A stretch of 64,000 bases of DNA, taken from the NCBI GenBank assembly GCA_902826815.1, contig CADEGF010000011.1, positions 30,719 to 94,718 of the forward strand, given 5' to 3'. This DNA is from an uncultured Mycobacteriaceae bacterium. GTDB taxonomy: Bacteria > Actinomycetota > Actinomycetes > Mycobacteriales > Mycobacteriaceae. The notes beneath the pieces were generated by a model, which ran no database searches, had not been told where the DNA came from, and saw only the letters and a list, made by a program, of their open reading frames with translations. Below, one piece after another: positions 3,086-30,218 of the stretch. Made by a program: the position numbers and the translations under genes. Position 1 is the first letter of the stretch. Each line of letters starts with the position of its first letter.

Positions 3086-3136
3086 CAACACACTCCAACT
3101 GTGATGGGGAAGGGACGGTTGGTGGCGCGGAGATGG

Positions 3137-3803: not shown

Positions 3804-3941
3804 ATGACGCTTGAGGTCGTCGAAACCCCGCCTGACTGGGAACGGCTGCGGACCCGGTTCGAGCATGCTTCGCGCAAGGTTCTGCGGCTACGACAGAAGG
3901 TCGTGATGCCGACGCTGCCCACGGGGGCACCGATCACCTAA
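3804..3941 (+). pseudogene. Fragment of a WS/DGAT acyltransferase gene
   Basis: Bases 3804-3932 align without gaps to 28842-28970 inside the intact WS/DGAT gene, 121 of 129 identical by my count, at a constant offset of 25,038. The reading frame is kept (MTLEVVETPPDWERLRTRFE and onward) and then runs to a stop at 3941, giving a 45-codon remnant of a protein of about 495 aa. The upstream part is unrelated to the full gene and no ribosome binding site is evident. It is a partial duplicate or leftover, not a functional acyltransferase. It shares orientation with the full gene, making the pair direct repeats. Confidence 0.85.
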
Positions 3942-4070
3942 GCGCTGGGCACCTCCGGGGTCCTCGGAGCACGACCACTGCGTAGCGCAATGCGTTACTT
4001 GACGTTTGGAGTGATTGCCGGATCCGCCGTACAACACCGGAATGCACGCTGGTGCGTATGCTTTCTTGTG

Positions 4071-4439
4071 ATGATTCACCACGTTCAGATCGCATGCCCA
4101 GCGGGAGGCGAAGAAGCCGAGCGCAAGTACTTCACGGGCGTGTTGGGTTGGGAGGAATTGCGTAAGCCGCCGCTGCTGGCGGCACGCGGCGGCTGCTGGT
4201 TCCGCGTTCGGGGAGTTGGCGGTCCCGACGCTGAGCTGCACGTGGGAATCGAGCGCGACTTTCGTCCGGCGAGGAAGGCCCATCCCGCATTCGTCGTCGA
4301 TGTCGACGCAACGGCAGCGGCGCTGTCGTCGGCCGGTTACCCGGTGCACTGGGCGGATCCGGCCGAAATCCCAGGCCGACGCAGATTTCACTCCGCCGAC
4401 GGTGTTGGCAACAGAATCGAATTTCTGAGCCCTGCCTAG
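4071..4439 (+). CDS. VOC/glyoxalase-fold protein
   Basis: 122-aa single-domain vicinal-oxygen-chelate protein. Seen: N-terminal MIHHVQIACP (metal-site His region), a middle ELHVGIE segment and the C-terminal DGVGNRIEFLSPA typical of the beta-alpha-beta-beta-beta fold. The start is set at ATG 4071, where homology begins; the open frame continues upstream without clear coding character. It converges tail-to-tail (2-nt stop overlap) with the Gfo/Idh/MocA gene. Substrate unknown; members include glyoxalases, dioxygenases and resistance proteins. It may belong to the island or to the older flank. Confidence 0.75.
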   Translation: MIHHVQIACPAGGEEAERKYFTGVLGWEELRKPPLLAARGGCWFRVRGVGGPDAELHVGIERDFRPARKAHPAFVVDVDATAAALSSAGYPVHWADPAEIPGRRRFHSADGVGNRIEFLSPA

Positions 4440-5398
4440 GGCATCGACAAATCAGCCAGTATCTGATCCATCACTGCTGCGGTGCGGGTCGCGCTCACAC
4501 CCGTGCTGGGGCAGGACCCGACGCCGTTCCATTCGTCGACGATGCGGTGTAGCAGAGGTTGGTGCACATGCGGCGGGTCGTCGATTGGCAGCGACTCCGT
4601 GGTAGAGCCGTGTACCAATTGGACGGGTTCGGGCGCTGAGATGGACAACGAAACCGTCCCGCGCGTGCCGATGATCGTGGTGCAGTCATGGTCCGTACCC
4701 GCTTCGAAACACCATGTACCGGAACCGATGACATCGTCGTCCAGGGTGTAACTCATGGTGACTGTGTCCTCGACCGGACCGTTGTGGCCGATCGCCCGGC
4801 CGTGCACGTCGCGCAGCGGACCGAGCACGTAATCCAGCCAGTCCAGTGTGTGGCAGGCCGCATCGAAGAACCATCCACCACCCGAAAGCCCCGGCGTGTT
4901 CTGCCATGACTGGGGTCGAGGCTGCTGCAGCCGGATCGAATTCACCGCGCGCACTTCGCCGATTGCGCCCTCGGCGATCAGCTTGCGGACATGTTCGAAG
5001 CGCGGGAGCGCGCGGCGATAGTAGGCAACCCACAGCGGCACGCCCGCCGCTTCGCAGGCCGCCGTCATCGAACGGCATTCCTCGGCGTCGACGGCCATCG
5101 GCTTCTCGACGAGCACCGCCTTGCCTGCGGCTGCGGCTCGGCGAGTGTAGTCCGCGTGACTATTGGGATGGGTTGCGATGTACACCGCGTCGATGTCCTC
5201 GGCGGACAGGATCTCTTCGGCGTCGGAGTGCCAGCGGGGGACGTTATGACGCCGGGCGTAATCACGCGCCAGATCAGCGTTGCGGCGCATGACCGCGACC
5301 AGCTCAACGCCGGGTATTCGGCGAAAAGCCGGTCCACTCTTGACTTCTGTGACATCGCCAACGCCGATGATGCCCCACCGTATAGTAGCCACCGTCAC
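4436..5398 (-). CDS. Gfo/Idh/MocA family oxidoreductase
   Basis: 320-aa NAD(P)-dependent oxidoreductase. Seen: N-terminal Rossmann fold (WGIIGVGDVTEVKSGPAF), the dinucleotide-site segment IATHPNSHADYTRRA and the VEKPMAVDAEECRSM motif, whose Lys is the usual catalytic residue. The C-terminal half (AACHTLDWLDYVLGP) is the substrate domain. Family members act on sugars, inositols and related hydroxy acids; this substrate is unknown. The GTG start at 5398 overlaps the stop of the RraA-type gene (GTGA), placing it last in a three-gene minus-strand operon with a flavoprotein. Confidence 0.85.
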   Translation of the reverse strand: MTVATIRWGIIGVGDVTEVKSGPAFRRIPGVELVAVMRRNADLARDYARRHNVPRWHSDAEEILSAEDIDAVYIATHPNSHADYTRRAAAAGKAVLVEKPMAVDAEECRSMTAACEAAGVPLWVAYYRRALPRFEHVRKLIAEGAIGEVRAVNSIRLQQPRPQSWQNTPGLSGGGWFFDAACHTLDWLDYVLGPLRDVHGRAIGHNGPVEDTVTMSYTLDDDVIGSGTWCFEAGTDHDCTTIIGTRGTVSLSISAPEPVQLVHGSTTESLPIDDPPHVHQPLLHRIVDEWNGVGSCPSTGVSATRTAAVMDQILADLSMP

Positions 5399-6096
5399 CG
5401 GCCGGAGCCGTATCCCTTCCGGTCCTTTAATCCGGCGAGCGTGAACGCGTCACCGTCGATGTAGGACATATCCGCGGCTTCGGCGGTCCGCACCTTATCG
5501 ACGGCGTCGGGCAAGTCCGGGAGGATCTCCCACGGAACGAGAACGATGCCGTTGGCATCCCCATGTATCAGATCACCGGTCTCAACGCGTTGCCCGTCCA
5601 GCTCGACAGGTTCGCCGACCGTGGCGATCTCGAAGTTCGCATGCGACACAACGGGATAGCGCATGAAGTAGTGGAAGCCCAGCGCCCGTACTTCGGCAAG
5701 GTCTCGCAGCGCGCCGTCGGTGACCATGCCGACCGCGCCAAGCCTGCGGGCAAGCCTGCTCATGATCTCGCCGGCATACGCCACCCGCTGAGGGGCCCCG
5801 CTCTCGTCGGCGATCATCAGCACGGCCGGCCCGGCGACGGCCTCAAGCTGTTCCCACATCCGCCAGTAACCCTCCCTCGAGGCTGGGCGGTCGCCGGGGT
5901 TGCGCATCGTGACGGTGAGCGCGTGTCCGACCATCGGTCCGAGTTCGGGGAAGCTGCAACGTACTTCGCCGCCGATGAAGCCGTCGGTGAGCGGACGAAC
6001 CTTGAACCGTTCGATGGCGTTCGCGATGGTGGGACTGTCGACTGAAGCCAGAAAACTCAGATCGGCGTCGGTCAATGTCTGTGCGGTGGTCGTCAT
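5395..6096 (-). CDS. RraA-like aldolase / oxaloacetate decarboxylase family
   Basis: 233-aa RraA/HMG-aldolase fold protein. Seen: STIANAIERF near the N-terminus, GHALTVTMRNPGD, GEIMSRLARRLGAVGMVTDG (the conserved G-x-x-x-D region), ALRDLAEVRALGF, and GDLIHGDANGIVLVP. Relatives are divalent-metal class II aldolases that cleave 4-hydroxy-2-oxo acids such as 4-hydroxy-4-methyl-2-oxoglutarate, and many decarboxylate oxaloacetate to pyruvate. ATG 6096 overlaps the flavoprotein stop (ATGA). Oxaloacetate would be the product of the tartrate-dehydratase-like enzyme encoded divergently, so a decarboxylase role fits, but this is inference. Confidence 0.85.
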   Translation of the reverse strand: MTTTAQTLTDADLSFLASVDSPTIANAIERFKVRPLTDGFIGGEVRCSFPELGPMVGHALTVTMRNPGDRPASREGYWRMWEQLEAVAGPAVLMIADESGAPQRVAYAGEIMSRLARRLGAVGMVTDGALRDLAEVRALGFHYFMRYPVVSHANFEIATVGEPVELDGQRVETGDLIHGDANGIVLVPWEILPDLPDAVDKVRTAEAADMSYIDGDAFTLAGLKDRKGYGSGR

Positions 6097-7571
6097 GTGT
6101 CCTTGGTCGCTTTCTTCGGTCGGTTGAGGTTGCGGGTCACGGCCTGGCCGGCAAGCCTGCCCGATGTCATCGCCCACCCGATGTGGTGGCCATGCCCCTT
6201 GAGCAGCATGCCGCCCTGTCCGACTCCGCCGACCGCCCGCAGACCGTCGATCGGCGAGCCGTCTGCGCGCAGCACCCGCAGGTCGGTGTCTACCGCTAGC
6301 GCACCCTCGGTGACGGTGAGCATGCTGAACACCGGCCCCATCGCCACCAACGGCGGTCGCACGATCGACGACGCGATCGCATCCTGCAGGTTGTGCCGGT
6401 CCACACCAATGGCGTCGGCGAGCGTGTCGACATCCGGTGCGCGCGTGATGAGGTCGGGGCGCCCGCGTGCATAGTCACTGAAGTACGCGAACGCGATGCC
6501 CGGCGCGGTCGAGATGTAGTTCGGTTCGTGTTCGAACTCCGCGGCGATGGTTTCGTCGAGAATGATGAACCCTCGGCGTTCCGGTTGGCGGGAGAGTTCC
6601 TCGGCGGGTGCCTGTTCGGCGCCGAACCTGGTACCTGAGTTGTCCACCAGCACGGCACCGGCTGAGAACAGGGAGTTACTTGGTGACATGTGCGACACCA
6701 GAAGCGATTTCACGATCGGCCGCAGCGCAGCGGCTGGGAGTGTGCGAACCACAATGCCCTCGAGCTTGCATAGCCACTGCCACAACGGAAGTCGGTCGAG
6801 CAATCCGGTCTTGGGTGGCGGAGGAAAGCGAAGTTGCGGGCCGAACAGCTGATCCATGCGCACCAGAGCGCCCCCGATCTCCGCGGCCATCTGATGCCCG
6901 AGTCCCAACGCTCCGTCATTGATCGGGATGGCTCCGTGCGCGCTCTCGGGGAGATGCTCCTTGCGCATCGTGGCGTTGCCGCTGAAGTCGCCGCTGGCCA
7001 GGATGACGCCGCGACGGGCGAGGAGTTGACCGGTGCCGGACGGGCCACTGGTTTCCAACCCGGTGACACGCCCGTCGCCATCGGTGAGCAGGCGCGCCAC
7101 CTCGGTACGCAGGCGAATGTCGACACCAGCACGCTTGGCGGCCGATGACAGCCGGGCGATATAGGACCGCGAGTTGGGAATCACATTGTGCATCCGCGAA
7201 ACCCGGTGCGGTGGTTCGGGATACGGACCCGAGAACACCACGCCGTGGTCGACGAGCCAGTCATAGGTGCGTGCGGATTCGACCGCGTAGAGCCTGCGCA
7301 ACTCGGGCGCATCGCCGTCGAGCAGTTCGGTATCGAACGCCCACATGTCCTCGACCAGTTCGGCGGGGTCATCGTGAATGCCCTTGCTTCGTTGCAGGGG
7401 AGTGTCGGCTGCGGTCAGTGAACCCACCGAGTAGGCGGTCGTACCACCGAGATCATCCTGGCGTTCGACCAGCGCGACGGAAGCGCCACGCTCGGCGGCG
7501 GCCACGGCGGCGGACAGGCCTGCGCCCCCGCCACCCACCACGAGGACGTCGTAGGTGCCGGAATTCGCCAC
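6093..7571 (-). CDS. FAD-dependent oxidoreductase (fumarate reductase / KstD-like flavoprotein)
   Basis: 492-aa flavoprotein of the FAD_binding_2 type. Seen: dinucleotide motif YDVLVVGGGGAGLSAAVAAA at residues 7-26 followed by VALVERQDDLGGTTAYS, a second FAD contact RRGVILASGDFSGN, and the C-terminal AVGGVGQGGMLLKGHGHHIG with the following helix. Such enzymes dehydrogenate or reduce C-C bonds next to carboxyl or keto groups (fumarate reductases, 3-ketosteroid dehydrogenases, tricarballylate dehydrogenase). GTG start 7571 has GGGGAG 6 nt upstream. First gene of the minus-strand operon, divergent from the DapA-like gene. In this setting a dicarboxylate-type substrate is more likely than a steroid (inference). 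Confidence 0.8.
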   Translation of the reverse strand: MANSGTYDVLVVGGGGAGLSAAVAAAERGASVALVERQDDLGGTTAYSVGSLTAADTPLQRSKGIHDDPAELVEDMWAFDTELLDGDAPELRRLYAVESARTYDWLVDHGVVFSGPYPEPPHRVSRMHNVIPNSRSYIARLSSAAKRAGVDIRLRTEVARLLTDGDGRVTGLETSGPSGTGQLLARRGVILASGDFSGNATMRKEHLPESAHGAIPINDGALGLGHQMAAEIGGALVRMDQLFGPQLRFPPPPKTGLLDRLPLWQWLCKLEGIVVRTLPAAALRPIVKSLLVSHMSPSNSLFSAGAVLVDNSGTRFGAEQAPAEELSRQPERRGFIILDETIAAEFEHEPNYISTAPGIAFAYFSDYARGRPDLITRAPDVDTLADAIGVDRHNLQDAIASSIVRPPLVAMGPVFSMLTVTEGALAVDTDLRVLRADGSPIDGLRAVGGVGQGGMLLKGHGHHIGWAMTSGRLAGQAVTRNLNRPKKATKDT

Positions 7572-7591
7572 AGGCCACTCCCCATTTCACA

Positions 7592-7613
7592 CAGTTTCAT
7601 CGCAGTTTCATCG
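7592..7613. repeat. 11-bp tandem direct repeat
   Basis: CAGTTTCATCG occurs twice head to tail just upstream of the flavoprotein start, one helical turn apart. Such spacing often marks cooperative regulator binding. No regulator can be assigned. Confidence 0.5.
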
Positions 7614-7626
7614 TATCGATTCCAAC
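7611..7626. promoter_or_regulatory. Candidate LacI-family operator (site C)
   Basis: Read on the minus strand the sequence begins GTTGGAATCGATACG and shares TTGGAATCG with the more symmetric site at 12594-12610. It is placed in the divergent promoter region that the island's LacI-type regulator could control. One half-site is imperfect. Confidence 0.35.
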
Positions 7627-7843
7627 ACTACGACTGATCCCGCGGCTTCGTCTAGAGCTCTTTCGATTCGCGGTTCTTCTGCGGCGCGACCCTCCGCTTA
7701 GGCGGGCAAGCCGCGCGGGTGCCGCGTTGGTTGGCGGCCATGCGGTGCGGGTTCACGGCGGTGAATGCGAGATGTCGCTTGCACTAAGGCGTTAGCCGCT
7801 GCTTGAATGGGCGTGACCATACATCGTCCGCAGAGAGGCGACC

Positions 7844-8776
7844 ATGCCCGCTCCCGACATGCGAGGCCTGATCCCGGCCATCGTCACCCCCTTCGATGAC
7901 AAGGGGGACGTTGATTACGGCAGCCTCGTCTCTTACGTGTCATGGATGAAATCGATTCCAGGCGTGGTTGCCATCGTGCTCAATTCGCATGCGGGTGAAG
8001 GCAGTGCGCTCACCAGCGACGAACGTGCTGAGATCGTGCGCACCGTGAAGTCGGAGTTCGGCGACCTCCACGTCGTCGCGGGCGTCATCGGCGACGGCAC
8101 TCGGCTGGCCGCTGTCGAGGCCGAACGCGCCGCCGCGAACGGAGCGGACTCGCTGCTGATCTTCCCGCCACCGTCGGCGGTCCGGTTCGGATTCCAACCC
8201 GGATCCGTCCAGGACCGCTACCGTGCCGCGTGGTCGGCGGCGCACCTACCGATCATCGCGTTCCAGTTCCCGAATGTCACGAAGGCGACCTTCACCCTGC
8301 CCTTGCTGCTCGAGTTGTGCGCACTGGACGGGGTATTCGCGCTCAAGGACGGCGCCCGCGACATGATTCGGTGGGACACCGAGGTGCCCGTGATCCGTGA
8401 GCAGTTCCCGGAAATTCAGATGCTCACCTGCCAGGACGAGTTCCTGCTGCACACGATGTGGGAGTCGGACGGTGCATTGGTGGGCTACGGCGCGCTCATC
8501 CCTGAGCTGCTGGTCGAAGAGCTGACGAAGGCCAAGGCGCACGACTACGACGCCGCCAAAGAGGTGCATGACCGGATACTGCCGATCACCAAGGCCGTCT
8601 ATCATCGCGCGTCGCACATCGAGTCGACGCCTGCGATGAAGCTCGGGCTGGTGGAGCGGGGTCTCCTGCGATCGGCATATGTCCGGTCGCCGTTGATGCC
8701 GCTGGAGGACGGCGCCCGCGAGAACATCCGCTCCGCGATGCTGTCGGCCGGCGTCGACCTTGGTGTGAACGCCTGA
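7844..8776 (+). CDS. DapA/NanA family lyase (Schiff-base class I aldolase or dehydratase)
   Basis: 310-aa TIM-barrel protein of the dihydrodipicolinate synthase/N-acetylneuraminate lyase family. Seen: GLIPAIVTPFDDKGDVDYGS at the N-terminus, the Schiff-base lysine in FALKDGARD (Lys168), and NSHAGEGSALTSDER in place of the usual GTTGE loop. Odd: the strand normally ending YN-x-P reads AFQFP, so the family's catalytic Tyr is Phe140. That makes it neither a standard DHDPS nor a standard sialic acid lyase. It starts a plus-strand unit ending 1 nt before the tartrate-dehydratase-like gene. Probably a 2-oxo-acid aldolase or dehydratase; substrate unknown. Confidence 0.8.
   Translation: MPAPDMRGLIPAIVTPFDDKGDVDYGSLVSYVSWMKSIPGVVAIVLNSHAGEGSALTSDERAEIVRTVKSEFGDLHVVAGVIGDGTRLAAVEAERAAANGADSLLIFPPPSAVRFGFQPGSVQDRYRAAWSAAHLPIIAFQFPNVTKATFTLPLLLELCALDGVFALKDGARDMIRWDTEVPVIREQFPEIQMLTCQDEFLLHTMWESDGALVGYGALIPELLVEELTKAKAHDYDAAKEVHDRILPITKAVYHRASHIESTPAMKLGLVERGLLRSAYVRSPLMPLEDGARENIRSAMLSAGVDLGVNA
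7947..7959. promoter_or_regulatory. Intragenic LacI-operator-like sequence (site D)
   Basis: TGAAATCGATTCC lies inside the DapA-like gene, about 330 bp from site C, and fits the consensus TGRAATCGNTTCC drawn from the sites at 12451 and 12594. LacI-type repressors often use such downstream auxiliary operators. It could equally be chance within coding sequence. Confidence 0.25.
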
Positions 8777-8777
8777 C

Positions 8778-9950
8778 ATGCGAATCGTCGACATCCGGCA
8801 GATCACGGTGCCGATTGCCAGCGAGATGGCGAACGCATTCATCAACTTCTCGAAAATGGACGTCAGCGTGGTGGCGATCGTCACCGACCAGGTCCGTGAT
8901 GGCAAGCCCGTGGTCGGCTACGGATTCAACTCGAACGGCCGGTACGCCCAGCGCGGCATCCTGTCGCACCGGATTATACCCAGAGTGCTTGAGGCGGAAC
9001 CGGATTCGCTGATTGATCCAGGCACGGGGCTCCTCGACCCCGAACGAATCTGGGCTGCGGCGATGACGAACGAGAAACCCGGCGGCCACGGCGACCGTGC
9101 GGTCGCCGTCGGGATTCTGGACATGGCGGCCTGGGACCTCGCGGCGAAGCTTGCCGACACCCCCGTCCAGAACCTGATGGCCACCCGCTCGCCGGCAGGA
9201 CTTGGGACCCCGCTTGACCGGGTTTGGGTGTACGCAGCGGGCGGCTACTACTACCCCGACCGAGGAACTGACGGTCTGTGCTCGGAGATGCTGGGCTACC
9301 TCGATCTCGGCTACCGGACGGTGAAGATGAAGATCGGTGGCGCGCCGCTGGCCGAGGATCTCGCCCGCATCGAGGCCGTGCTCGGCGTGCTGCCCGACGG
9401 CTGTTCACTCGCCGTCGACGCCAACGGCCGCTTCGACGCCGACGTCGCGGTCGAATACGCGCAGGCGTTGGCCCCGCTGCCCCTGCACTGGTACGAGGAG
9501 CCCGTCGACCCGCTGGACTATCAGGGGCTGGCGGCCACGGCCGCGCACTATCAAGGGGTGCTCGCAACGGGGGAGAACCTGCTATCCCGCCAGGAAGCGG
9601 CCAACCTCGTCCACTTCGGTGGGCTGAGGCCCGATCGCGATGTGCTGCAAATGGATTCGGCGTTGAGCTACGGCTTCACCGAATACCAGCGCACGCTGGC
9701 CATGCTGGACAAGAACGGCTGGCAGGCGCAGCGCTGCGTGCCTCACGGCGGACACCAATTCAACCTCGCGATCGCCGCGGCCTGCGGGTTGGGTGGATCG
9801 GAGTCCTATCCGGGTATTTTCGAACCATTCGGCGGATTCGCCGACGGCGATCAGGTGCACGACGGGTACATCACGCTGCCCGATGTCCCGGGGATCGGAC
9901 TTGAAGCCAAGTCGTCGCTCCGACCGGTCCTCGCGCAGCTGGAGACCTGA
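8778..9950 (+). CDS. tarD: Enolase-superfamily dehydratase, D-tartrate dehydratase-like
   Basis: 390-aa mandelate-racemase-subgroup enzyme. Seen: K183-M-K185 in TVKMKIGGAP, metal-ligand strands SLAVDANGRFD and HWYEEPVDP, ATGENL, and the general acid/base His323 in CVPHGGHQ. The sequence closely matches my memory of Bradyrhizobium D-tartrate dehydratase (GYGFNSNGRY, NEKPGGHG, VYAAGGYYYP, and the KxK and His positions shifted by one). That enzyme dehydrates D-tartrate to oxaloacetate with Mg2+. It lies between a DapA-like lyase and a permease gene in a LacI-linked unit. A different 2,3-dihydroxy-dicarboxylate cannot be excluded. Confidence 0.8.
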   Translation: MRIVDIRQITVPIASEMANAFINFSKMDVSVVAIVTDQVRDGKPVVGYGFNSNGRYAQRGILSHRIIPRVLEAEPDSLIDPGTGLLDPERIWAAAMTNEKPGGHGDRAVAVGILDMAAWDLAAKLADTPVQNLMATRSPAGLGTPLDRVWVYAAGGYYYPDRGTDGLCSEMLGYLDLGYRTVKMKIGGAPLAEDLARIEAVLGVLPDGCSLAVDANGRFDADVAVEYAQALAPLPLHWYEEPVDPLDYQGLAATAAHYQGVLATGENLLSRQEAANLVHFGGLRPDRDVLQMDSALSYGFTEYQRTLAMLDKNGWQAQRCVPHGGHQFNLAIAAACGLGGSESYPGIFEPFGGFADGDQVHDGYITLPDVPGIGLEAKSSLRPVLAQLET

Positions 9951-11304
9951 GACCACGGAAAAGAACGAGTCGGCACAGACATGGAAGCGACCACGCGACG
10001 GACAGCGGCGCACGACGTCGCGGTGGGTCGACAGGTTGTTCGGCATCGCGTTGGCGATCAACATGCTTTTGGTGCCTGCCGCTGTCGCCTTCCCGGCGCT
10101 GGATCCGGCGGCGGGCGCGACGACTCTCGCCGCCACGGCGCTGGGCATTTTCGGGCTGCCGCCGACGCAGCGCCTGCTGGCCGCTGTTCTCATCACGGTC
10201 GGGGTGGGCGCCCTTGTGGCTGCCGTCGTGCTTGGTGCGCGGCCGGCCGTCAGCCAGCTGCTGACGCTCAACCAAACCTTGATCGGCATGCTCACGGCGG
10301 TGTCTTTCGTGCGACTGATCTCCAGCGACCCGGGTGTCCACCGACCACGGCTGACGGGTGTGCCTGCCGTATGGCGTACCGCGGTCGTCGTCCAGTTGCT
10401 CGGGGCGGTGATCAACATCAGCGCGGTGACATTGGTTGGGGATCGGTTGCGGCACAAGGGGAAGCTGCACATAGCGGACGCATTGCTATTGTCGCGTTCC
10501 TACTCGCCCGGTGCATTCTGGTCACCGTTCTGGGGCGCCAGTGCCGCTGCGCTGACGTACGCGATCGGAGCCGACACCGGCGTCCTGCTGATCTGTGGCG
10601 GCCTGCTGGCGCTCGGGGCGTTCAGCATCAGCATCACGATGGTGGTGCGTGCATACGGGGACCGGCTGCCGGACTATCACGGGTATCCGTTGTCGGCACG
10701 GGTGCTGGTGCTGCCGATCACCATGGCGGGCTTTGTGATCGGGCTGCACACCACGTGGCCGCACCTCAAACTCGCCGTCGTCGTGCTGGTCGTGTCGCTG
10801 GTCGTCCCGACGGTCGTGCTTGCCGTCACGAAGACGCGGCACCTGCGCCGCATAATGGCCGGGCACGTCGTGCGCGGCCTGCAGCCGATGCGCGGGGAGG
10901 CGGTGCTGTTCACTGCCGCCGGCGTGCTGTCCGTCGGCCTTCGCGCTGTTCTCGACGTCGCGGGCGTCACGATTCCCGGGCAGTACTACACGGTCTGGTT
11001 CGCCTGGTTGTCGGTGCTGGCGATGACTCTTGTCGCGCTTGTCGGCGTGCACCCGGTCATCTCGATCGCGGCCGTGGCATCTGTGCTCGGCCCGGTCATC
11101 AGCGAACCGACGCTGTTCGCCCTGGCGGGCACGATCGCGTGGGGAACGGCGGCGGCGGTTGGGCCGATCAGCGGTCTGAATGTGTTCCTGGCCGGACGCT
11201 TTGGGATCAGCGGGTTCGAGGTTGCCCGGCGAAACTTCGCCTACCTGTTCGTCGTTGCCGTGTTGTCTTTGCCAGCACTCCTTCTGTGTGCCAAGCTGAC
11301 CTGA
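9883..11304 (+). CDS. Polytopic membrane transporter, family uncertain
   Basis: Up to 473 aa with about 10-12 hydrophobic segments starting near base 10036 (LFGIALAINMLLVPAAVAF) and ending KLT*. No ATP-binding or solute-binding motif is seen; repeated GVHPVIS and GPISGLN segments recall ion-coupled organic-acid carriers, but I cannot name the family. It follows the tartrate-dehydratase-like gene, so hydroxy-acid transport is a fair guess. The start is doubtful: the in-frame ATG 9883 lies 68 nt inside the preceding gene and the first 50 residues are basic and non-homologous in appearance. ATG 9981 opens a different frame and would require a frameshift near 10020; TTG 10036 is another choice. 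Confidence 0.65.
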   Translation: MSRGSDLKPSRRSDRSSRSWRPETTEKNESAQTWKRPRDGQRRTTSRWVDRLFGIALAINMLLVPAAVAFPALDPAAGATTLAATALGIFGLPPTQRLLAAVLITVGVGALVAAVVLGARPAVSQLLTLNQTLIGMLTAVSFVRLISSDPGVHRPRLTGVPAVWRTAVVVQLLGAVINISAVTLVGDRLRHKGKLHIADALLLSRSYSPGAFWSPFWGASAAALTYAIGADTGVLLICGGLLALGAFSISITMVVRAYGDRLPDYHGYPLSARVLVLPITMAGFVIGLHTTWPHLKLAVVVLVVSLVVPTVVLAVTKTRHLRRIMAGHVVRGLQPMRGEAVLFTAAGVLSVGLRAVLDVAGVTIPGQYYTVWFAWLSVLAMTLVALVGVHPVISIAAVASVLGPVISEPTLFALAGTIAWGTAAAVGPISGLNVFLAGRFGISGFEVARRNFAYLFVVAVLSLPALLLCAKLT

Positions 11305-11346
11305 TTGCCGGGATGCCAACCGTCCCCCCGAGGCGGAGGAGCTGAT

Positions 11347-12378: not shown

Positions 12379-12472
12379 GGATTCAGGTAGTTGTGATTTA
12401 CGCTTGCAGAGACTCGCATTGTGACCGTAGTCTCGTTCTCGGCGGAACATTGAAATCGGTTCCCGGAGACGT
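12379..12472 (+). promoter_or_regulatory. Promoter region of the 16-kb catabolic operon
   Basis: Gap after the LacI-type gene. It contains a perfect 6-bp inverted repeat GAGACT (12409-12414) / AGTCTC (12429-12434) and, just before the first start codon, an operator-like site at 12451-12464. No clear -35/-10 pair can be chosen by eye. Confidence 0.4.
12451..12464. promoter_or_regulatory. Candidate LacI-family operator (site A)
   Basis: TGAAATCGGTTCCC, a half-conserved palindrome centred on CG, matches the site at 12594-12610 at most positions. It ends 8 nt before ATG 12473, where a bound repressor would block transcription or initiation. Confidence 0.45.
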
Positions 12473-16284: not shown

Positions 16285-16288
16285 TGCC

Positions 16289-22516: not shown

Positions 22517-24102
22517 ACTCACGGACGGCACAGGAGCGGGTATCCCGATGGCGCCGTGCGCGAACGGGTTCCCTGGCCATCTTCATGGTCATCGCCTTCG
22601 CGTTGGCGGGATGTTCCGGCGGCGGAGGCGGTGGTGGTAGCACAGGCTCGGAGGTGACGATCGCCCTTCCCGAGGAGCCGAGGACGCTGGCCAGCTGGAA
22701 CGCGTATTCCAACGACGGCCACCCGGTTCTGCGCAACGTGGAAGAGGCGCTGATCAACCGCGACCCCAAGACCAACGAGCTGGTACCGGAGCTCGCGTTG
22801 TCGTGGAAGCAGGTCGACCCGACCAACTGGCAGTTCACCCTTCGGCAGAACGTCAAGTTCACCGACGGCACGGACTTCGACGCGGCTTCGGCTGCGACGT
22901 CGCTGAACTACGTGCTCGATGCGAAGAACGCGTTCCCGATGCGCACATTCCTCGGTCCCGACATCGAGGCCAGTGCGGTCGACAAATACACGTTGAACGT
23001 GAAAACCGCTGCGCCGGACCCGATCCTGCCCACCCGCCTGTATTTCGTGACGATCCCGTCGGCGAAGCAGGTCACCGACGATCTGGGCAGCTACGAGACC
23101 AACCCAGTCGGCACCGGGCCGTACAAGCTCGAGTCGTGGGACCGCGGCCAGAGCATCGTCCTGGTTCCCAACGATGAGTGGTGGGGGAAGGACGCCCCTG
23201 ACGCGGGTGGCAAGGCGACCATCACGAAGGCGACGTATGTCTTCCGCCCCGAGACCGAGGTGCGCGCGGCGATGGTGCAGCAGGGTGAGGCCGACCTGGC
23301 ACCCAAGCTGTCAAAGGAACAGTGCGATGCTGCGCCGAAGTGCGAGTCGACACCGACGGTGGAGACGGTGATCCTGCGGATCGACACCAAGAACCCCGTC
23401 TTGGCTGACCTGCGTGTGCGACAGGCTATTTCGATGGCGTTCAACAAAGAGCAAATCATGAACGACATCCTCGGTGGCGGCAAAGTCGTCGGCCAGATCG
23501 TCGGACCGTCAGCTGTCGGATACGCCGATCTGCCGCCGTACCCGTATGACCCGGAAAAGGCCAAGGCGCTCATCGCCGCGGCCAAGGCCGACGGTGTGAA
23601 CGTCACCGAGCCGATAACGGTGTCTGCCCGCGAGGGTTACATACTGCGCGCCAACGAGGTGGTGCAGCTCATCGCCGAGAGCCTCACGTCGATCGGCATG
23701 ACCGGTGTCACCAGCCAGACGCAGGAGACCGCCGCTTTCGAGCAGCAGTGGACGATGGGCTACCAGAACATCCCGCCCGAGCGCGCCCTTCTCGGCCTGC
23801 AACAGCACGGTCAGGAGCTGATGGACTTCTCCGGCAGTGTCGTCTCCTACTACTCCTGCGATGGCAACACCTCGGCGTACTGCGACCCCGAACTGGAGAA
23901 GATGTACGCGGCCGCGGTCGGCACCACCGGTGATGCGCGGCAGCAGGCGCTGGCCAATATCGCCAAGTACGTCTACGACAAGGTGGCGGTGGTGCCCATC
24001 GGCCAGCCGAACTTCAATTTCGGCCTGGCACAACGGCTGGACTGGAAGCCACGCACCGACGGTTTCATCCTGCTCAAGGAAATGACACTCACCAACAGTT
24101 GA
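22513..24102 (+). CDS. ABC transporter solute-binding lipoprotein (SBP family 5)
   Basis: 529 aa. A signal peptide with lipobox FALAGC places the lipid-modified Cys at about residue 34, followed by a Gly-rich linker. The mature protein has the family-5 (oligopeptide/dipeptide/nickel) fold: [57 protein letters not shown]. It captures substrate outside the membrane for the permease pair. A short Cys-containing loop [15 protein letters not shown] may form a disulfide. GTG overlaps the previous stop. A strong hairpin follows the gene, fitting higher expression of this component. Confidence 0.93.
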
Positions 24103-24113
24103 CACCAGGTCGG

Positions 24114-24140
24114 GCCGGGCAGGTGACCCGCCTGCCCGGC
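24114..24140 (+). terminator. Strong intercistronic hairpin after the binding-protein gene
   Basis: GCCGGGCAGG (24114-24123), 7-nt loop, CCTGCCCGGC (24131-24140): a perfect 10-bp GC stem 12 nt after the stop codon, with no T run. In ABC operons such stems behind the binding-protein gene commonly stabilise its mRNA or partly terminate transcription. The downstream genes remain on the same strand, so read-through is expected. Confidence 0.6.
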
Positions 24141-24162
24141 AACGACCGGAAGGAAGTCTTTT

Positions 24163-24951
24163 ATGACGTTTAGCAACCCGTTGACGGCGGCATGGCGGGG
24201 CGGCGAGACCGTGCTGGGTGTATGGTGCACGCTGCCGGATCCGTTCGCCGCCGAGATCTTCGGCCGCCAGGGCTACGACTACGTGTGTATCGACCAGCAG
24301 CACGGGATGATCGACGACTCGACGGCTTTCCCGATGGTGCAGGCGGTCGCGGCGTCCGGTGCGGCACCGATCGTGCGGGTCCGGTGGAACGAACCCCCGG
24401 CGATCATGTCGGCCCTCGATGCCGGTGCGCTCGGTGTCGTCGTCCCGATGATCGAGACCCGCGAGGACGCGATTGCGGCCGTGAGCGCGTGCCGCTTCCC
24501 GCCTGCTGGACAGCGGTCCTACGGGCCGATCCGGGCCCGTGACGTGATGGGTTCGACCGACCCCGATGTGCTGTCCGACGTCGCGTGCATCATCATGATC
24601 GAAACCCAGCGTGCGCTGGCCGAACTCGATGAGATCGTCTCGACCCCGGGCATCGACGGTGTCTACATCGGCCCGAGTGACCTCGCGCTCGCGTTGGGGG
24701 AGAAGCCCGGATCGACGGCCCCGATCGTCGACGACACCGTGCAGCGGATCGCCGATGTTTGCCGCCGCCATGGAGTGGCCGTCGGAATGCACACTCCCGC
24801 AGGCGCCGTCGCGCGGCGGTATGTCGAGCGCGGCTTCGACTTCGCGACGGTGTTCTCCGATGCGGGCCTGATCGCGGCCGCCGCACGCGAACAGCTGGAC
24901 GTTGCACGCAACGCATCGAAACCCGTCGCCGTGCCGTCCGGCGGCTACTGA
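24163..24951 (+). CDS. HpcH/HpaI-type class II aldolase
   Basis: 262-aa TIM-barrel metal-dependent aldolase. Seen: LGVWCTLPDPFAAEIFGRQG, DYVCIDQQHGMID (the catalytic His follows the Asp), PIVRVRWNEPPAIMSALDAG with the conserved Arg, GALGVVVPMIETRED and IMIETQRALAELDEI (metal-binding Glu), then GVYIGPSDLALALG (metal Asp). Relatives split 2-dehydro-3-deoxyglucarate or 4-hydroxy-2-oxo-heptanedioate into pyruvate plus an aldehyde. GGAAGGAAG 6 nt before ATG 24163 sets the start. An aldehyde product would feed the operon's aldehyde dehydrogenase. Confidence 0.9.
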   Translation: MTFSNPLTAAWRGGETVLGVWCTLPDPFAAEIFGRQGYDYVCIDQQHGMIDDSTAFPMVQAVAASGAAPIVRVRWNEPPAIMSALDAGALGVVVPMIETREDAIAAVSACRFPPAGQRSYGPIRARDVMGSTDPDVLSDVACIIMIETQRALAELDEIVSTPGIDGVYIGPSDLALALGEKPGSTAPIVDDTVQRIADVCRRHGVAVGMHTPAGAVARRYVERGFDFATVFSDAGLIAAAAREQLDVARNASKPVAVPSGGY

Positions 24952-24965
24952 CGGGGGATCTGACC

Positions 24966-26021
24966 ATGCTGGCGGGATACATGCTCAAACGCACCGTGCA
25001 CGCGGTGCTGGTGCTGCTCGCGGTGTTGGTGGTGGTCTGGATCCTCGTCAACCAGATCGGCGACCCGGCGCGGCTGATCCTTCCGCCGTCGGCGAGCCAC
25101 CAGCTCTATCTGGATACCCGCGCATCGATGGGCCTCGACGACCCGCTGCCCGAGCGGTTCTGGCGTTCGTTCTCCGGCTGGTTGCAGCTCGATTTCGGTA
25201 ACTCGTTGTGGCAGAAGGTGCCCGCGCTGGGTTTGGTGCTCGATCGCCTTCCGGCGACGCTGTTGCTGACGGTGGCGACATTCCTCGTGGCGATCCCCAT
25301 CTCGCTGGCACTCGGGGTACTTTCGGCGCTACGGCCGGACGGTCTGCTGGACCGGTTCCTGACCGCAGTCTCGCTGTCGGGTGTGTCGATCGCAGACTTC
25401 TGGCTCGGGCTGATGCTGATCCTGCTGTTCGGTGTGAAACTGCATCTGCTCCCGACGTCCGGCTACGGCGGAATCGAGTTTCTCGTCCTGCCCGCACTCA
25501 CGTTGGCGTTCAGACCCATCGGCAGACTCGCCCAGGTGGCGCGGTCGGCGCTCGTCGAGGAGATGCAGAAGCCCTATATCGTTGCCCTGCGCGCGCAGGG
25601 CATGTCTGAGGGGCGCATCGTGCGCCGCCACGCGATGAAGAACAGCCTCATCCCGATCATCACGGTCGGCGGCGACGAACTTGCGAGCTTCCTCAACGGC
25701 GCGGTGGTGATCGAGACCATCTTCGCCTGGCCGGGTATCGGCAGCCTGTTCATCAACGCGATCGAAAGACGGGATTTGCCACTGGTTTTGGCGTGCGTAT
25801 TTGTCATCGCCACGATGGTCATCATCGTCAACCTCGTCATCGATCTCACCTACGCGTGGATCGACCCGCGGGCATCCCTGATCGTGGACTCACGGCGGCG
25901 AAAGCGGGGTAGCGGACCCGTAACGCCGTCGACGATGGGCTCCATGACGGGCGGCGGCCAGGGCATCGCAGACGAGGACGTCGGGGCGACACCACAGTCG
26001 CTCTCGGCGACACCGACCTAG
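24966..26021 (+). CDS. Opp/Dpp-type ABC transporter permease (DppB-like)
   Basis: 351 aa, six TM segments. Seen: MLKRTVHAVLVLLAVLVVVW at the N-terminus, GLDDPLPERFW, LDFGNSLW, LLPTSGYGGIEFLVLPALTL, the EAA loop VALRAQGMSEGRIVRRHAMK and VVIETIFAWPGIGSL, all typical of DppB/OppB. A hydrophilic tail of about 50 residues at the C-terminus is unusual in length and probably cytoplasmic. GGGGGA 7 nt before ATG 24966 fixes the start; earlier in-frame sequence overlaps the aldolase gene. Pairs with the DppC-like protein encoded 8 kb upstream. Confidence 0.93.
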   Translation: MLAGYMLKRTVHAVLVLLAVLVVVWILVNQIGDPARLILPPSASHQLYLDTRASMGLDDPLPERFWRSFSGWLQLDFGNSLWQKVPALGLVLDRLPATLLLTVATFLVAIPISLALGVLSALRPDGLLDRFLTAVSLSGVSIADFWLGLMLILLFGVKLHLLPTSGYGGIEFLVLPALTLAFRPIGRLAQVARSALVEEMQKPYIVALRAQGMSEGRIVRRHAMKNSLIPIITVGGDELASFLNGAVVIETIFAWPGIGSLFINAIERRDLPLVLACVFVIATMVIIVNLVIDLTYAWIDPRASLIVDSRRRKRGSGPVTPSTMGSMTGGGQGIADEDVGATPQSLSATPT

Positions 26022-26052
26022 AAACTCACCGAAAAGGCTTGAGAGGAGACGA

Positions 26053-27294
26053 ATGAGCGAGGGGGCGCAGCCCGGTCCGTTGGAAGGTGTTCGCGTACTG
26101 GACTTCACGGAGCGGATGCAGGGGCCGTACGGGACGCAGATCCTGGCCGATCTCGGGGCGGAGGTCATCAAGGTCGAGCGACGGGTGTCGTTGACCGTCG
26201 ACGGGCGGCCCGATGAACGCTACGGGCCCAACGGGCGCTACGGGCAGGATCCCGCCGACACCTCGTTCTACGCAGCGGGATTCCTTGCGGCCAACCGCAA
26301 CAAGAAGAGCGTCACGGTCGACCTGAAGAACTCCGAAGGCAAGGCGGTAATAGAGCGCCTCGTCGAACAGTCCGACGTCGTCTACGAAAACTTCCGGCCC
26401 GGCGTGATGGATCGGCTGGGCATCGGCTACCAGGATTGCGCCCGTATCAATCCGTCGGTGATTTACGCGTCGGCGTACGGATTCGGCTCGGACGGACCGT
26501 ATCTGCGCAGGCCCGGCCAAGATGTGCTGGTGCAGGCCATCGGCGGCTTCGGCGCGATGAACGCGGCAGCGGACGGCAGGCCGACGCCGGTCGGGATGTC
26601 GATAACGGATCTGCTGGGGGGCATGAACGGCGCCATCGCGGTGCTGGCGGCCCTGCGCCACCGCGAGCGCACCGGCGAGGGTCAGCGAGTCGAGGTGAAT
26701 CTGCTGGCCAGCGCCATCGCGGCACAGTCCGAACAGGCAGTGCACTTCCTGAACACCGATGTCGGTGAGCCCGACCGCGGCACTGTCATGCACGCGCATC
26801 CGTATATCCCTGCACCGTATGGGTTCTACGCCACCAAGGACGGATACCTCGCGCTGTCCAGCGGCCGCCAGATCCCCGAGCTGTCGCGGATTCTCGGGCT
26901 GCCCGAGCTCACCACCGACCCCCGATTCATCACACCGAGCGCGCGCAACGATCACCGCGAAGCGTTCGAGAAGCTACTCGAAGAGGCACTGCAACAGAAG
27001 ACGACGGCCGAGTGGCTGGAGCTGATGGACCCAGATGAGATGTTCGTCGCGCCGGTGAAGACGTTCGGCGATGCCTTCACCGACGAACAGGTCGTCCAGC
27101 AGGGAATGGTCGCCACCATCGACTCACCGGTGGGCGAGCTGAGACTGCCCGCGCCGCCGTACAAGCTGTCGCGGACCCCTGCCTCGGTGCGCACCGCGCC
27201 GCCTCGTCACGGAGAGCACACCGAGGAGGTGCTCGAGGCGGCCGGCTTCAGCCGCGACGACATCGACCGGCTGCGTGACCGCAAGGCGATCTGA
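26053..27294 (+). CDS. CaiB/BaiF class III CoA-transferase (copy 2)
   Basis: 413 aa. Seen: VLDFTERMQGPYGTQILADL, AEVIKVERRV, FRPGVMDRLGIGY, catalytic Asp in RPGQDVLVQA, HPYIPAPYGFYATKDGYLAL and a C-terminal APPRHGEHTEEV that closes the active site. AGGAG lies upstream of ATG 26053. It overlaps the next CoA-transferase by one base (TGATG), and the two align over their whole length, pointing to tandem duplication. Class III enzymes of this type can work as hetero-oligomers, so copies 2 and 3 may form one enzyme. Confidence 0.9.
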   Translation: MSEGAQPGPLEGVRVLDFTERMQGPYGTQILADLGAEVIKVERRVSLTVDGRPDERYGPNGRYGQDPADTSFYAAGFLAANRNKKSVTVDLKNSEGKAVIERLVEQSDVVYENFRPGVMDRLGIGYQDCARINPSVIYASAYGFGSDGPYLRRPGQDVLVQAIGGFGAMNAAADGRPTPVGMSITDLLGGMNGAIAVLAALRHRERTGEGQRVEVNLLASAIAAQSEQAVHFLNTDVGEPDRGTVMHAHPYIPAPYGFYATKDGYLALSSGRQIPELSRILGLPELTTDPRFITPSARNDHREAFEKLLEEALQQKTTAEWLELMDPDEMFVAPVKTFGDAFTDEQVVQQGMVATIDSPVGELRLPAPPYKLSRTPASVRTAPPRHGEHTEEVLEAAGFSRDDIDRLRDRKAI

Positions 27295-28526
27295 TGGCGG
27301 TCGCGCAAGGACCGCTGGCCGGCATCCGGGTGCTGGACTTCACCGAGCGGATGCAGGGTCCATACGCGACGCAGATGCTCGCGGACATGGGCGCCGACGT
27401 GGTCAAGGTCGAGCGGCGGGTGGCGCTGACGGCAGACGGCCGCAGCGACGACAGGTACGGAGTGAACGGGCGCTACGGCACCGACCACGACGACTCGACG
27501 ATCTATGCCGCAGGCTTCCTCGCCAACAACCGCAACAAGCGCAGCATCACCGCCGACCTGAAAACCGATGCGGGGCTGGCGATGATTCATCGGTTGGTGC
27601 CGCAGTTCGACATCATCTACGAGAATTTCCGGCCCGGCGTGATGGATCGTCTCGGTCTCGGCTACGAACGGTGTCGGGAACTCAGTCCGAAGATCGTCTA
27701 CGTGTCCGCGACCGGGTACGGGCCGGACGGCCCGCACGCTGCCAAACCTGGCCAGGATGTGCTGGTCGAGGCGCGCACCGGATGGGGCGAGCTCAACAGT
27801 GTCGACGGGCGACCCGTACCGGTGGCATCGGCGCTTGCGGACACGCTCGGCGCGATGAACGGGGCGTTCGGGACAGTGTGCGCGATCGTGCATGCGTTGC
27901 GGACCGGAGAAGGGCAGCGGGTCCGCACCAGCCTGTACGAGAGCGCGATAGCAGGTATGGCGGAGTGGGGATTTCACTTCCTGAATTCTCCGCAGGGCGC
28001 CCCGCAACGTCCCCGTCCCGGACACGCCAGCCCGTACACACCACCCCCGTACGGCTTCTACGCCACCAAGGACGGGCACATCGCATTGTCCAGCGGTCGC
28101 CAGATCGCCACGCTATCAGGCATTCTCGGTATCGATGACCTCAGTCAGGACGACCGCTTCTCAACCTATTGGGCACGGCAGGACAACCGTGAGGAGTTCG
28201 CCAGAATCCTCGAGGAAGCCCTCAGTCAAAAGACGACTGCGGAATGGCTTGACCTGATGGAGCCCGAGGACCTCTTCGCCGCGCCCGTCAACACGATGGC
28301 TGAGGCATTCGCCGATCCGGCGGTCGCCCACTCGGAGATGCTCACCGAACTCGATACGCCGGCCGGGCCGCTGAAGTTTCTCGGTGTTCCCTACAAACTG
28401 GACAAAACGCCTGCGACGGTCAGGACACCACCGCCGCTGCACGGCGAGCACACGGACGAGGTGCTCACGCAAGCCGGCTTCGCCACTGCCGAGATCGCGG
28501 AATTACGCAGGCAAGGTGCGATCTGA
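27294..28526 (+). CDS. CaiB/BaiF class III CoA-transferase (copy 3)
   Basis: 410 aa. Seen: VLDFTERMQGPYATQMLADM, ADVVKVERRVAL, FRPGVMDRLGLGYERC, catalytic Asp in KPGQDVLVEA, YTPPPYGFYATKDGHIAL, PPLHGEHTDEVL. Compared with copy 2, the glycine-rich segment after the catalytic Asp is changed (TGWGELNS against GGFGAMNA), suggesting a different acyl group. Last gene of the island; about 200 bp further the conserved WS/DGAT operon begins. Confidence 0.9.
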   Translation: MAVAQGPLAGIRVLDFTERMQGPYATQMLADMGADVVKVERRVALTADGRSDDRYGVNGRYGTDHDDSTIYAAGFLANNRNKRSITADLKTDAGLAMIHRLVPQFDIIYENFRPGVMDRLGLGYERCRELSPKIVYVSATGYGPDGPHAAKPGQDVLVEARTGWGELNSVDGRPVPVASALADTLGAMNGAFGTVCAIVHALRTGEGQRVRTSLYESAIAGMAEWGFHFLNSPQGAPQRPRPGHASPYTPPPYGFYATKDGHIALSSGRQIATLSGILGIDDLSQDDRFSTYWARQDNREEFARILEEALSQKTTAEWLDLMEPEDLFAAPVNTMAEAFADPAVAHSEMLTELDTPAGPLKFLGVPYKLDKTPATVRTPPPLHGEHTDEVLTQAGFATAEIAELRRQGAI

Positions 28527-28569
28527 GCGTCTCGCGTGTTACCGCCTAGCTTCCCCTTCCCTCGGCACT

Positions 28570-28614
28570 GGTCAGGACCGTAGCCGGCCCCAGCCCTAGG
28601 AATCGGACCTGACC
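28570..28614 (+). other. Inverted repeat in the gap between island and WS/DGAT operon
   Basis: GGTCAGG (28570-28576) and CCTGACC (28608-28614) form a perfect 7-bp inverted repeat around a 31-nt loop, the only notable structure between 28527 and 28710. It could be a weak terminator for the long operon or a binding site. The rest of the gap shows no gene. Confidence 0.25.
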
Positions 28615-28710
28615 TGCGCGTTAGAGGCAGCCCGAAACGTCCACCACAGCGAGTTATGGCGGACTAGCGTGGGTAGTCGAATGTGCGAGGCGACGGGAGG
28701 AGCAGCAACG

Positions 28711-28734
28711 ATGGCAGGGTGGCCGCAGCCGTGA
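28711..28734 (+). CDS. 7-codon upstream ORF coupled to the WS/DGAT gene
   Basis: ATG 28711, preceded by the strong site GGGAGGAG 8 nt upstream, encodes MAGWPQP and stops at TGA 28732-28734, which overlaps the GTG start of the acyltransferase (GTGA). The acyltransferase GTG has no ribosome binding site of its own. This fits a leader peptide through which ribosomes reach the main gene by termination-reinitiation. No peptide function is implied. Confidence 0.5.
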   Translation: MAGWPQP

Positions 28735-30218
28735 GTGACGCGCCGGGATGGGAGACCACGGCGGGACCTCCGGAGGAACTCAGCTCCGTCGACCAGATTC
28801 TGCACCGCGGCGAGGCGAATCCGCGCACGCGCTCGGGGATCATGACGCTGGAGGTCCTCGACACCACGCCTGACTGGGAACGGCTGCGGACCCGGTTCGA
28901 GCATGCTTCGCGCAAGGTGCTGCGGCTACGGCAGAAGGTCGTGATGCCGACGCTGCCCACGGTGGCGCCGCGCTGGGTCATCGACCCCGACTTCAACCTC
29001 GACTTCCATGTCCGTCGCGTCCGCGTCGCCGAGCCAGGCACGTTGCGCGCGGTGCTCGACCTCGCCGAGGTCGCACTGCAGTCACCGCTCGACATCTCGC
29101 GGCCGCTGTGGACCGCCACCCTCGTCGAGGGACTCGCGGGTGGCCGGGCCGCGATGATGGTTCACCTCAGCCACGCCGTCACCGATGGTGTGGGCGGGGT
29201 CGAGATGTTCGCCAACCTCTACGACCTCGAGCGCGACCCACCGCCTGAGGCGGACCCGCCGATGCCGATCCCGCAGGACCTGTCGCCGAACGACCTTATG
29301 CGGCAAGGGTTCAACCGGTTGCCAGGCGCCATCGCAGGCGGTGTCGGCAAGGCGATCTACGGTGCCGCACACGCTGTCGGGAACGTGTTCCGCGACCCGG
29401 TCGCATCGCTCGGCGGTGCCGTCGAGTACGCCATTTCGGGTGCCCGCGTGGTCGCGCCCGCCGCCGAGCCGTCGCCGGTGCTGCTCCGCCGCAGCCTTTC
29501 CTCCCGCAGCGACGCCATCGACATCGAGTTCGGTGATCTGCACAGGGCCGCCAAAGCGGCGGGCGGGTCGATCAACGATGCCTACCTGGCAGGCCTGTGC
29601 GGCGCGCTGCGGCTGTACCACGAACGCATGGGTGTGCCCGTCGACACCCTGCCGATGGCGATCCCGGTCAACATGCGGTCCGATAACGACCCCGCAGGCG
29701 GAAACCGGTTCGCGGGTGTCAATCTCGCGGCGCCCATCAGTGAGGTCGACCCGGAGAAGCGGATCAAGAGCATTCGCTCGCAGATGACACGCAAGCGTGA
29801 AGAGCGCGCGGTGAACATGGTCGGCGTCATCGCACCGCTGATCAGCCTCTTGCCGGACACCGTCCTCGAGGGGATGGCCGGATCCATCGTGAACTCCGAC
29901 GTGCAGGCCAGCAATGTGCCTGTGTACGCAGGAGATACATTCATCGCGGGCGCAAAGATCCTGCGACAGTACGGACTTGGCCCGCTACCCGGGGTGGCGA
30001 TGATGGTCGTGCTTGTGTCGCGGGCCGGCTACATCACCGTCACCGCGCGATACGACCGCGCCGCGGTGACCGACGGAGACTTCTTCGCCAGGTGCATGCA
30101 GGTCGGATTCGACGAAGTGCTCGCGCTCGGCGGCGAAGGCCGTTCGATGCCCGCCTCATTCACTGCCGATACCCAAGAACCCAACCCACCGTCACCGAAC
30201 GGGAGCAGCGCCCTATGA
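28731..30218 (+). CDS. Wax ester synthase / diacylglycerol acyltransferase (WS/DGAT)
   Basis: 495-aa acyl-CoA-dependent acyltransferase that esterifies diacylglycerol or long-chain alcohols at the membrane (Rv2484c-type by context). Seen: LSSVDQILHR at the N-terminus, DISRPLWTATLVEGL, the active-site region HLSHAVTDGVGG, the middle NDAYLAGLCGALRLYHERMG, and the C-terminal VNMRSDNDPAGGNRFAG and GVAMMVVLVSRAGY. Odd: the canonical HHxxxDG motif reads S147-H148-x3-D152-G, so the first His is Ser while the catalytic second His is kept. GTG 28731 is coupled to a 7-codon upstream ORF. ATGA overlap with plsC; a 129-bp piece is duplicated at 3.8 kb. Confidence 0.9.
   Translation: MSDAPGWETTAGPPEELSSVDQILHRGEANPRTRSGIMTLEVLDTTPDWERLRTRFEHASRKVLRLRQKVVMPTLPTVAPRWVIDPDFNLDFHVRRVRVAEPGTLRAVLDLAEVALQSPLDISRPLWTATLVEGLAGGRAAMMVHLSHAVTDGVGGVEMFANLYDLERDPPPEADPPMPIPQDLSPNDLMRQGFNRLPGAIAGGVGKAIYGAAHAVGNVFRDPVASLGGAVEYAISGARVVAPAAEPSPVLLRRSLSSRSDAIDIEFGDLHRAAKAAGGSINDAYLAGLCGALRLYHERMGVPVDTLPMAIPVNMRSDNDPAGGNRFAGVNLAAPISEVDPEKRIKSIRSQMTRKREERAVNMVGVIAPLISLLPDTVLEGMAGSIVNSDVQASNVPVYAGDTFIAGAKILRQYGLGPLPGVAMMVVLVSRAGYITVTARYDRAAVTDGDFFARCMQVGFDEVLALGGEGRSMPASFTADTQEPNPPSPNGSSAL

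Follow-up and report, generated by a model that had tools for sequence, protein, structure and literature searches.

Comparison of the stretch of DNA studied here with related genomes shows, on genomic grounds, that a catabolic gene cluster which already existed elsewhere in mycobacteria was inserted in this lineage between a tRNA-Arg(TCT) gene and a WS/DGAT gene. The stretch (the window, 64,000 nucleotides) covers positions 30,719 to 94,718 of contig CADEGF010000011.1 (C11) in assembly GCA_902826815.1, from an uncultured Mycobacteriaceae bacterium; coordinates below are those of the window unless a contig or locus is named. The island is lineage-specific: relatives have the same site without the cluster (80 of 80 loci from named genomes, and G396, the closest relative found), and the cluster is present as a unit at other sites in G419 and G107, and on a contig of its own in G040. 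A preliminary description of this DNA had taken the direct repeat bracketing the island for the scar of the insertion or duplication that brought it in. The insertion stands, tRNA-Arg and WS/DGAT being neighbours in the 80 loci and in G396, but the comparison does not support the repeat as something that belongs to the island: the cluster occurs in G419 and G107 without a comparable flanking repeat (only weak inverted matches were found, 31–34 bits versus 165 bits for the pair in the window).

The repeat was reproduced as originally reported: positions 3804–3932 and 28842–28970 are identical at 121 of 129 positions, gap-free and in the same orientation, with an offset of 25,038, and identity is at background level beyond both sides. 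A repeat search delimits the pair at 130 nt (3803–3932 and 28841–28970; 122/130, 94%), with a longest identical run of 52 bp, and no other direct repeat links these two intervals among the repeats listed. In a whole-genome search the pair has an E value of ~4e-51, far beyond chance. The right copy is internal to a complete WS/DGAT gene (Pfam WS_DGAT_cat, 5.9e-64; WS_DGAT_C, 2.2e-13), and the left copy is a lone fragment located 118 bp from the tRNA-Arg gene, close to it as had been noticed. Judged by identity, the fragment stems from the adjacent WS/DGAT gene, since it is 94% identical to the right copy and the best other listed genome reaches 88%. An origin from another WS/DGAT paralogue of the same genome, which the preliminary description had considered, was rejected, as these paralogues are 24–33% identical in protein.

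The empty site is documented by loci collected in a WS/DGAT protein search of named genomes, in which 114 relatives were confirmed and the best 80 loci kept. In all 80 the tRNA-Arg(TCT) gene lies on the opposite strand, 65–1728 bp upstream of the start of the WS/DGAT match, and the island occupies this site in none of them. When the window is compared in 1-kb bins, the bin containing the tRNA and the fragment is matched in 80/80 loci, and each bin from 28 to 34 kb in 78–80/80, which agrees with the earlier view of the right side as conserved mycobacterial core. The intervals 0–3 kb and 4–16 kb are matched in 0/80 and any bin from 16 to 28 kb in at most 2/80, the longer of these matches being weak and belonging to L133 and L091. 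In G396 the WS/DGAT gene directly follows tRNA-Arg, and the locus follows the window collinearly between 28613 and about 46 kb, at ~87% identity. The preliminary description had expected relatives with tRNA-Arg beside a single WS/DGAT gene: the adjacency holds in 80/80, and the single gene in 78/80, in which the fragment sequence occurs once per locus, inside that gene. L147 and L149 depart from it, with a further fragment match inside a second full-length WS/DGAT gene across the tRNA-Arg, 71–74% identical to the right copy. A stand-alone fragment at the tRNA of island-free relatives, which would have argued against the scar, was looked for and found in 0/80 named loci. In genomes of the genus Mycobacterium the fragment search gave matches in 298, and inspection covers part of these. 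The genus sets used here and below are samples drawn evenly from a larger group, and the figures rest on the matches listed; G163 is counted in two rows, with its locus on two contigs (99.6–100% identical). In L147 and L149 (Mycobacterium sp. MFM001, M. celatum) the second gene (6.97–8.28 kb) is 72–74% identical to its neighbour, and L147 has an additional tRNA-Arg(TCT)-like gene at 15652–15729.

The other genomes that carry the cluster place it elsewhere. When window positions 9000–28600 were searched against 396 genomes of the genus, our own included, a collinear cluster was found in 3 of the 395 others (G040, G419 and G107; ~67–80% DNA identity), with the same gene order and the same last CoA-transferase gene at the right end, in other surroundings. 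In all three, homology stops on the right at 28524–28529, the end of that gene; on the left it reaches 4484 in G107 and 5405 in G419, and in G040 the contig begins part-way through the cluster. The G419 cluster is close to the histidyl-tRNA synthetase gene (hisS), and the gap of ~130 bp between tRNA-Arg and WS/DGAT in that genome is empty. In G107 it starts ~50 bp past the 3' end of tRNA-Thr(CGT) (L217 9671–9796), near DNA polymerase III subunit and topoisomerase genes, so that two of the three readable placements of the cluster are beside tRNA genes. In G040 (assembly 89% complete, 5% contamination) the cluster is on a short contig, and the tRNA is on a contig without it, ~1.7 kb from WS/DGAT and in the other orientation. 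A search of 296 relatives of G396 listed 36 matches, and in none of them is the cluster end joined to WS/DGAT. Going by its different sites in G419 and G107, the cluster moves as a unit. It is more similar than the WS/DGAT region in G040 (80% versus 73%) but not in G419, which favours transfer for the G040 pair only. The G+C content of the island (65.7%, versus 66.2% in the right flank) does not deviate, as donors from within the genus would give.

The structure of the two joints can be read against L097, an island-free locus (labelled as a Pseudonocardiales metagenome-assembled genome; 87% protein identity) in which the order is tRNA, a small open reading frame (ORF), WS/DGAT. The features involved are the following.

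3610..3684, minus strand: tRNA-Arg (anticodon TCT; ARAGORN), native left neighbour of WS/DGAT, as in the 80 loci and G396.
3705..3802, plus strand: block A, relic of the small ORF (its 3' part), 76% identical to L097 2354–2448, with a protein match to residues 116–148.
3803..3932, plus strand: block C, the left copy, a 130-bp WS/DGAT fragment most likely in decay.
28525..28630, no strand: right joint, ~106 bp matching neither the cluster elsewhere (whose homology ends at 28524–28529) nor the empty sites (whose homology begins at 28613–28645).
28631..28840, plus strand: block B, the upstream region and 5' codons of WS/DGAT, missing from the left copy, 82–84% identical to L097, L075 and L077.
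28683..30218, plus strand: the WS/DGAT gene (Pfam; collinear with G396 at ~87%), with a GTG start at 28683 and an alternative GTG at 28731.
28841..28970, plus strand: block C', the right copy, within the complete WS/DGAT gene (from the repeat comparison).

With D as the rest of the WS/DGAT gene, the comparison with L097 gives an ancestral order tRNA – A – B – C – D and a present order tRNA – A – C – cluster – B – C' – D. Relative to L097, 344 bp are gone between the tRNA and block A, and 269 bp between block A and block C (85% identical to L097), so A and C each come after a deletion. In L097 block A ends 66 bp before B starts, hence C and the cluster sit between blocks that were formerly close. 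On the right, the onset of homology to the empty sites varies with the relative and the homology then continues through block B, C' and the remaining gene. The small ORF (L097 2009–2482), for which a Pfam search gave no match, is present between tRNA-Arg and WS/DGAT in 13 of the 80 named loci; it is truncated in 4 of these 13 (L093, L109, L115, L145) and broken in L126. By this comparison the native locus survives on the left as a deletion-ridden relic and on the right as a complete gene, and the duplication is limited to 130 bp.

The age of the duplication can be estimated with G396 as a third sequence. The left copy is 94% identical to the right copy and 87.7% identical to G396, and the right copy is 91.5% identical to G396; nine sites are common to left and right, six changes are found in the left copy only, one in the right copy only, and one site is different in all three. 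At four of the nine sites shared by the two copies, the state is rare or absent among 13 further relatives. By these counts the duplication is most likely younger than the split from G396, and the left copy is most likely the decaying one. We read the right copy as the native gene, as the gene and its downstream neighbour run along G396 from 28.9 to 31.7 kb at an identity of 0.80–0.95 per 100 bp with no step; identity is lower at 28.7–28.8 kb, in a non-coding and 5' stretch (0.63–0.77), and dips to 0.67 at 31.9 kb.

The explanation we favour, in which our confidence is evenly divided, is an illegitimate insertion accompanied by local copying of 130 bp, the left piece of which then decayed. Illegitimate insertion of the cluster at the boundary between A and B would be the simplest single event, with the fewest steps; 130 bp of the nearby WS/DGAT gene would have been copied into the left joint by a process akin to template switching or error-prone end joining, and the left piece would have decayed afterwards, the right gene having stayed under selection. 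The genome encodes Ku. The repeat is thus seen as a by-product of joining, neither an attachment site nor an excision device. A more specific form of this proposal, which we put forward tentatively and would expect to be wrong rather than right, is that the left joint is a template-switched insert of 130 bp made as an itinerant catabolic cluster of 25 kb was captured by end joining beside a tRNA gene. If so, mycobacteria bearing Ku could acquire large gene clusters without integrases or long homology, and local copied fragments would be a searchable signature of such captures across mycobacteria, from which the frequency of integrase-free entry could be gauged; if the copied-insert reading fails, the locus is an ordinary genomic island.

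Several observations weigh against illegitimate insertion with copying. The copying step itself is inferred and not seen. The joints show few bases of microhomology, the longest common words being 9–10 nt and lying off the breakpoints. The two joints come from a draft assembly of 141 contigs, and no other genome shows either of them. At five of the nine sites common to the left and right copies the shared state is also common in the 13 relatives, so these five do not set the pair apart and are uninformative. Island and core have the same similarity in G419 (76% both), with no sign of recent transfer. Finally, the second deletion, of 344 bp between the tRNA and block A, shows that the left flank loses DNA, so that block B could have gone by ordinary decay after a single crossover.

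This last point belongs to the strongest of the other explanations, single-crossover (Campbell) integration, which we consider possible but unlikely. A circle carrying the cluster and a B–C piece (~340 bp) would have produced tRNA – A – B – C – cluster – B – C – D, and the left B would later have been lost in a deletion of ~269 bp. Such an integration predicts a left copy that ends at C and a right copy that starts at B, which is what is observed, and loss of DNA here has precedent in the other deletion of the same flank and in the small ORF being cut down in 4 of its 13 loci. A full homologous segment at both ends is not seen, however, as only C is duplicated today, although B may have been deleted from the left copy. 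The model also requires that the circle had first acquired B–C from this lineage, and that the left end of the later deletion fell no more than 66 bp from where B starts. No plasmid with the cluster was found: of 72,556 plasmid records 276 match, none reaches 80% coverage of the query, and coverage is ~1% in each of the 20 best listed.

It is improbable that a duplicate WS/DGAT gene predated the cluster, either as a tandem duplicate or as a recipient allele beside a donor allele brought in with the cluster, and that its left copy then shrank by erosion to 130 bp. In 2 of the 80 named loci, L147 and L149, another full-length WS/DGAT gene is indeed present beside this tRNA-Arg, but it lies across the tRNA and is, at 72–74% to its neighbour, well below the 94% of the fragment, which also carries lineage-specific changes of the right copy, and no stand-alone fragment was found in the 80 island-free loci. 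For the same reasons (opposite side of the tRNA, 71–74% to the right copy), the fragment was rejected as a relic of a second gene of the L147/L149 type.

Islands at tRNA genes normally use the 3' side of the tRNA gene, and the one described here lies 5' of its tRNA. Integrase-driven, site-specific integration at tRNA-Arg, with the island as a degenerate integrative element, is for this and other reasons very improbable: the flanking repeat is protein-coding, and of 14 matches to tyrosine integrase (PF00589) in the genome none is on C11, serine recombinases and transposases not having been searched for; in its favour are the adjacent tRNA gene, the position of the cluster by tRNA-Thr(CGT) in G107, and the frequent use of tRNA genes by mycobacterial prophages, as stated in PMC10654092. 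Duplication of a tRNA attachment site was likewise rejected, no copy of the tRNA end being present at either border. The locus therefore resembles the tRNA-associated islands, prophages and phage satellites of mycobacteria in having accessory DNA beside a tRNA in a conserved gene order, and differs from them in the absence of a PF00589 integrase on the contig and of a tRNA-end duplication, in the side of the tRNA used, and in a repeat that is coding sequence rather than an attachment core. Homology-facilitated illegitimate recombination, as described in PMC3240628, combines one homologous and one illegitimate end and couples insertion to local DNA loss, with inserts of ~1 kb that replace ~1 kb and microhomologies of 3–10 bp; here 25 kb were inserted and a local duplication was made.

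The repeat had also been proposed to allow clean removal of the island by recombination between its copies. This does not hold, because the upstream region and the 5' codons have no counterpart in the left copy: the product, tRNA – A – C – D, would lose the upstream region and the first 37–53 codons of WS/DGAT, depending on the start used, and with these codons ~20 residues of the Pfam hit to the catalytic domain, a hit that starts at residue 33 in the long ORF. With a longest identical run of 52 bp, recombination between the copies is moreover expected to be rare.

Overall this is a well-resolved but fairly ordinary genomic-island insertion. It provides a cleanly bounded case of environmental mycobacteria gaining whole catabolic operons, documented by empty sites, by a close relative, by the cluster in three further genomes and by a scar with two comparable copies. 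A literature search found no publication naming this locus, which says little.

The genes between the repeats are all catabolic and accessory by Pfam and NCBIfam, as the preliminary description had it. They are arranged as follows, together with an ORF next to the left copy.

3990..4439, plus strand: ORF of 149 aa, outside the cluster of G419 and G107, with no Pfam match and 71–72% DNA matches elsewhere in G040 and G362; by eye we take it to be glyoxalase/VOC-like.
Within 4436..28526, minus strand (Pfam, NCBIfam): Gfo/Idh dehydrogenase, RraA-like protein, FAD oxidoreductase.
Within 4436..28526, plus strand, part 1 (Pfam, NCBIfam): DHDPS-like protein, enolase-superfamily dehydratase, membrane ORF, LacI regulator, MaoC proteins, tartrate dehydrogenase-like protein, SDR.
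Within 4436..28526, plus strand, part 2 (Pfam, NCBIfam): oligopeptide-type ABC transporter, aldehyde dehydrogenase, three type-III CoA-transferases, enoyl-CoA hydratase, HpcH/HpaI aldolase.

In the NCBIfam search of 20 proteins, only the dehydrogenase at 14380–15474 passes the cut-off among the rows shown (tartrate dehydrogenase, 550 versus 470 bits). The families suggest a pathway that would consist of uptake by the ABC transporter, activation by the type-III CoA-transferases, hydration by MaoC and enoyl-CoA hydratase proteins, and aldol cleavage of the HpcH/HpaI type; the substrate is likely to be of the hydroxylated dicarboxylic acid class.

The island had been equated with the stretch between the repeats. 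Insertion there is confirmed, but the extent is not: accessory DNA forms a further block across the tRNA, so that the island does not end at this gene and the neighbourhood of tRNA-Arg(TCT) is variable on both sides in this genome. The 31 kb of C11 to the left of the tRNA give weak matches to the left flanks of relatives (16 loci, ~29.6–30.3 kb) and, with G396, a single stretch of 231 bp (C11 993–1222, 82%) that is 63 bp from the tRNA in G396. The DNA native to the left side in G396 is found, as far as ~400 bp from the G396 tRNA, on contigs C116 and C74 of this genome, from which we infer that C116, a separate contig, is adjacent to C11. About 33 kb of accessory DNA (window 1–3600, C11 ~1223–34320) would then separate the tRNA from the native left flank, and the variable region would span about 58 kb and include the tRNA. 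The estimate of 33 kb is provisional, because the small ORF at the border (C11 993–1222) has a second copy in G396 and is absent from the named left flanks searched, and the left boundary is unsettled because C11 begins there. By Pfam, the left block contains, among others, aminotransferases, aldehyde dehydrogenases, a permease, glutamine synthetase and a peptidase C26 gene; it also holds amine-type catabolic, luciferase-like and ABC transporter genes. G040 has much of this block at 80–82%, with no tRNA within the 40 kb fetched, on a contig other than that of the 25-kb cluster, which suggests that the block and the cluster are two separate units; 16 genomes, G419 among them, are unscored in the genus comparison of the left block.

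To the right of the island lies the following conserved region.

30092..34236, plus strand: HAD/acyltransferase and glycerol-3-phosphate acyltransferase genes (Pfam), in bins matched by 78–80 of the 80 loci.

Three minor observations concern the WS/DGAT gene and the DNA downstream. A short reading frame preceded by a Shine-Dalgarno sequence (MAGWPQP, 28711–28734) overlaps the probable start of WS/DGAT, and similar ones occur in L074, L075, L076, L097 and G396; with a short ORF across the start in 12 of the 80 named loci, 4 of these resembling that of the window, the feature is not common to the whole genus. The acyltransferase gene that follows WS/DGAT ends in a lysine/alanine/proline-rich repeat tail (31721–31901, units of 12–15 nt, AKKTPAK-like), which we presume to resemble histone H1-like tails. 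Imperfect inverted repeats of ~40 nt with a common core occur at 45401–45502 and 57181–57223, and also in G396, like a small dispersed palindromic element.

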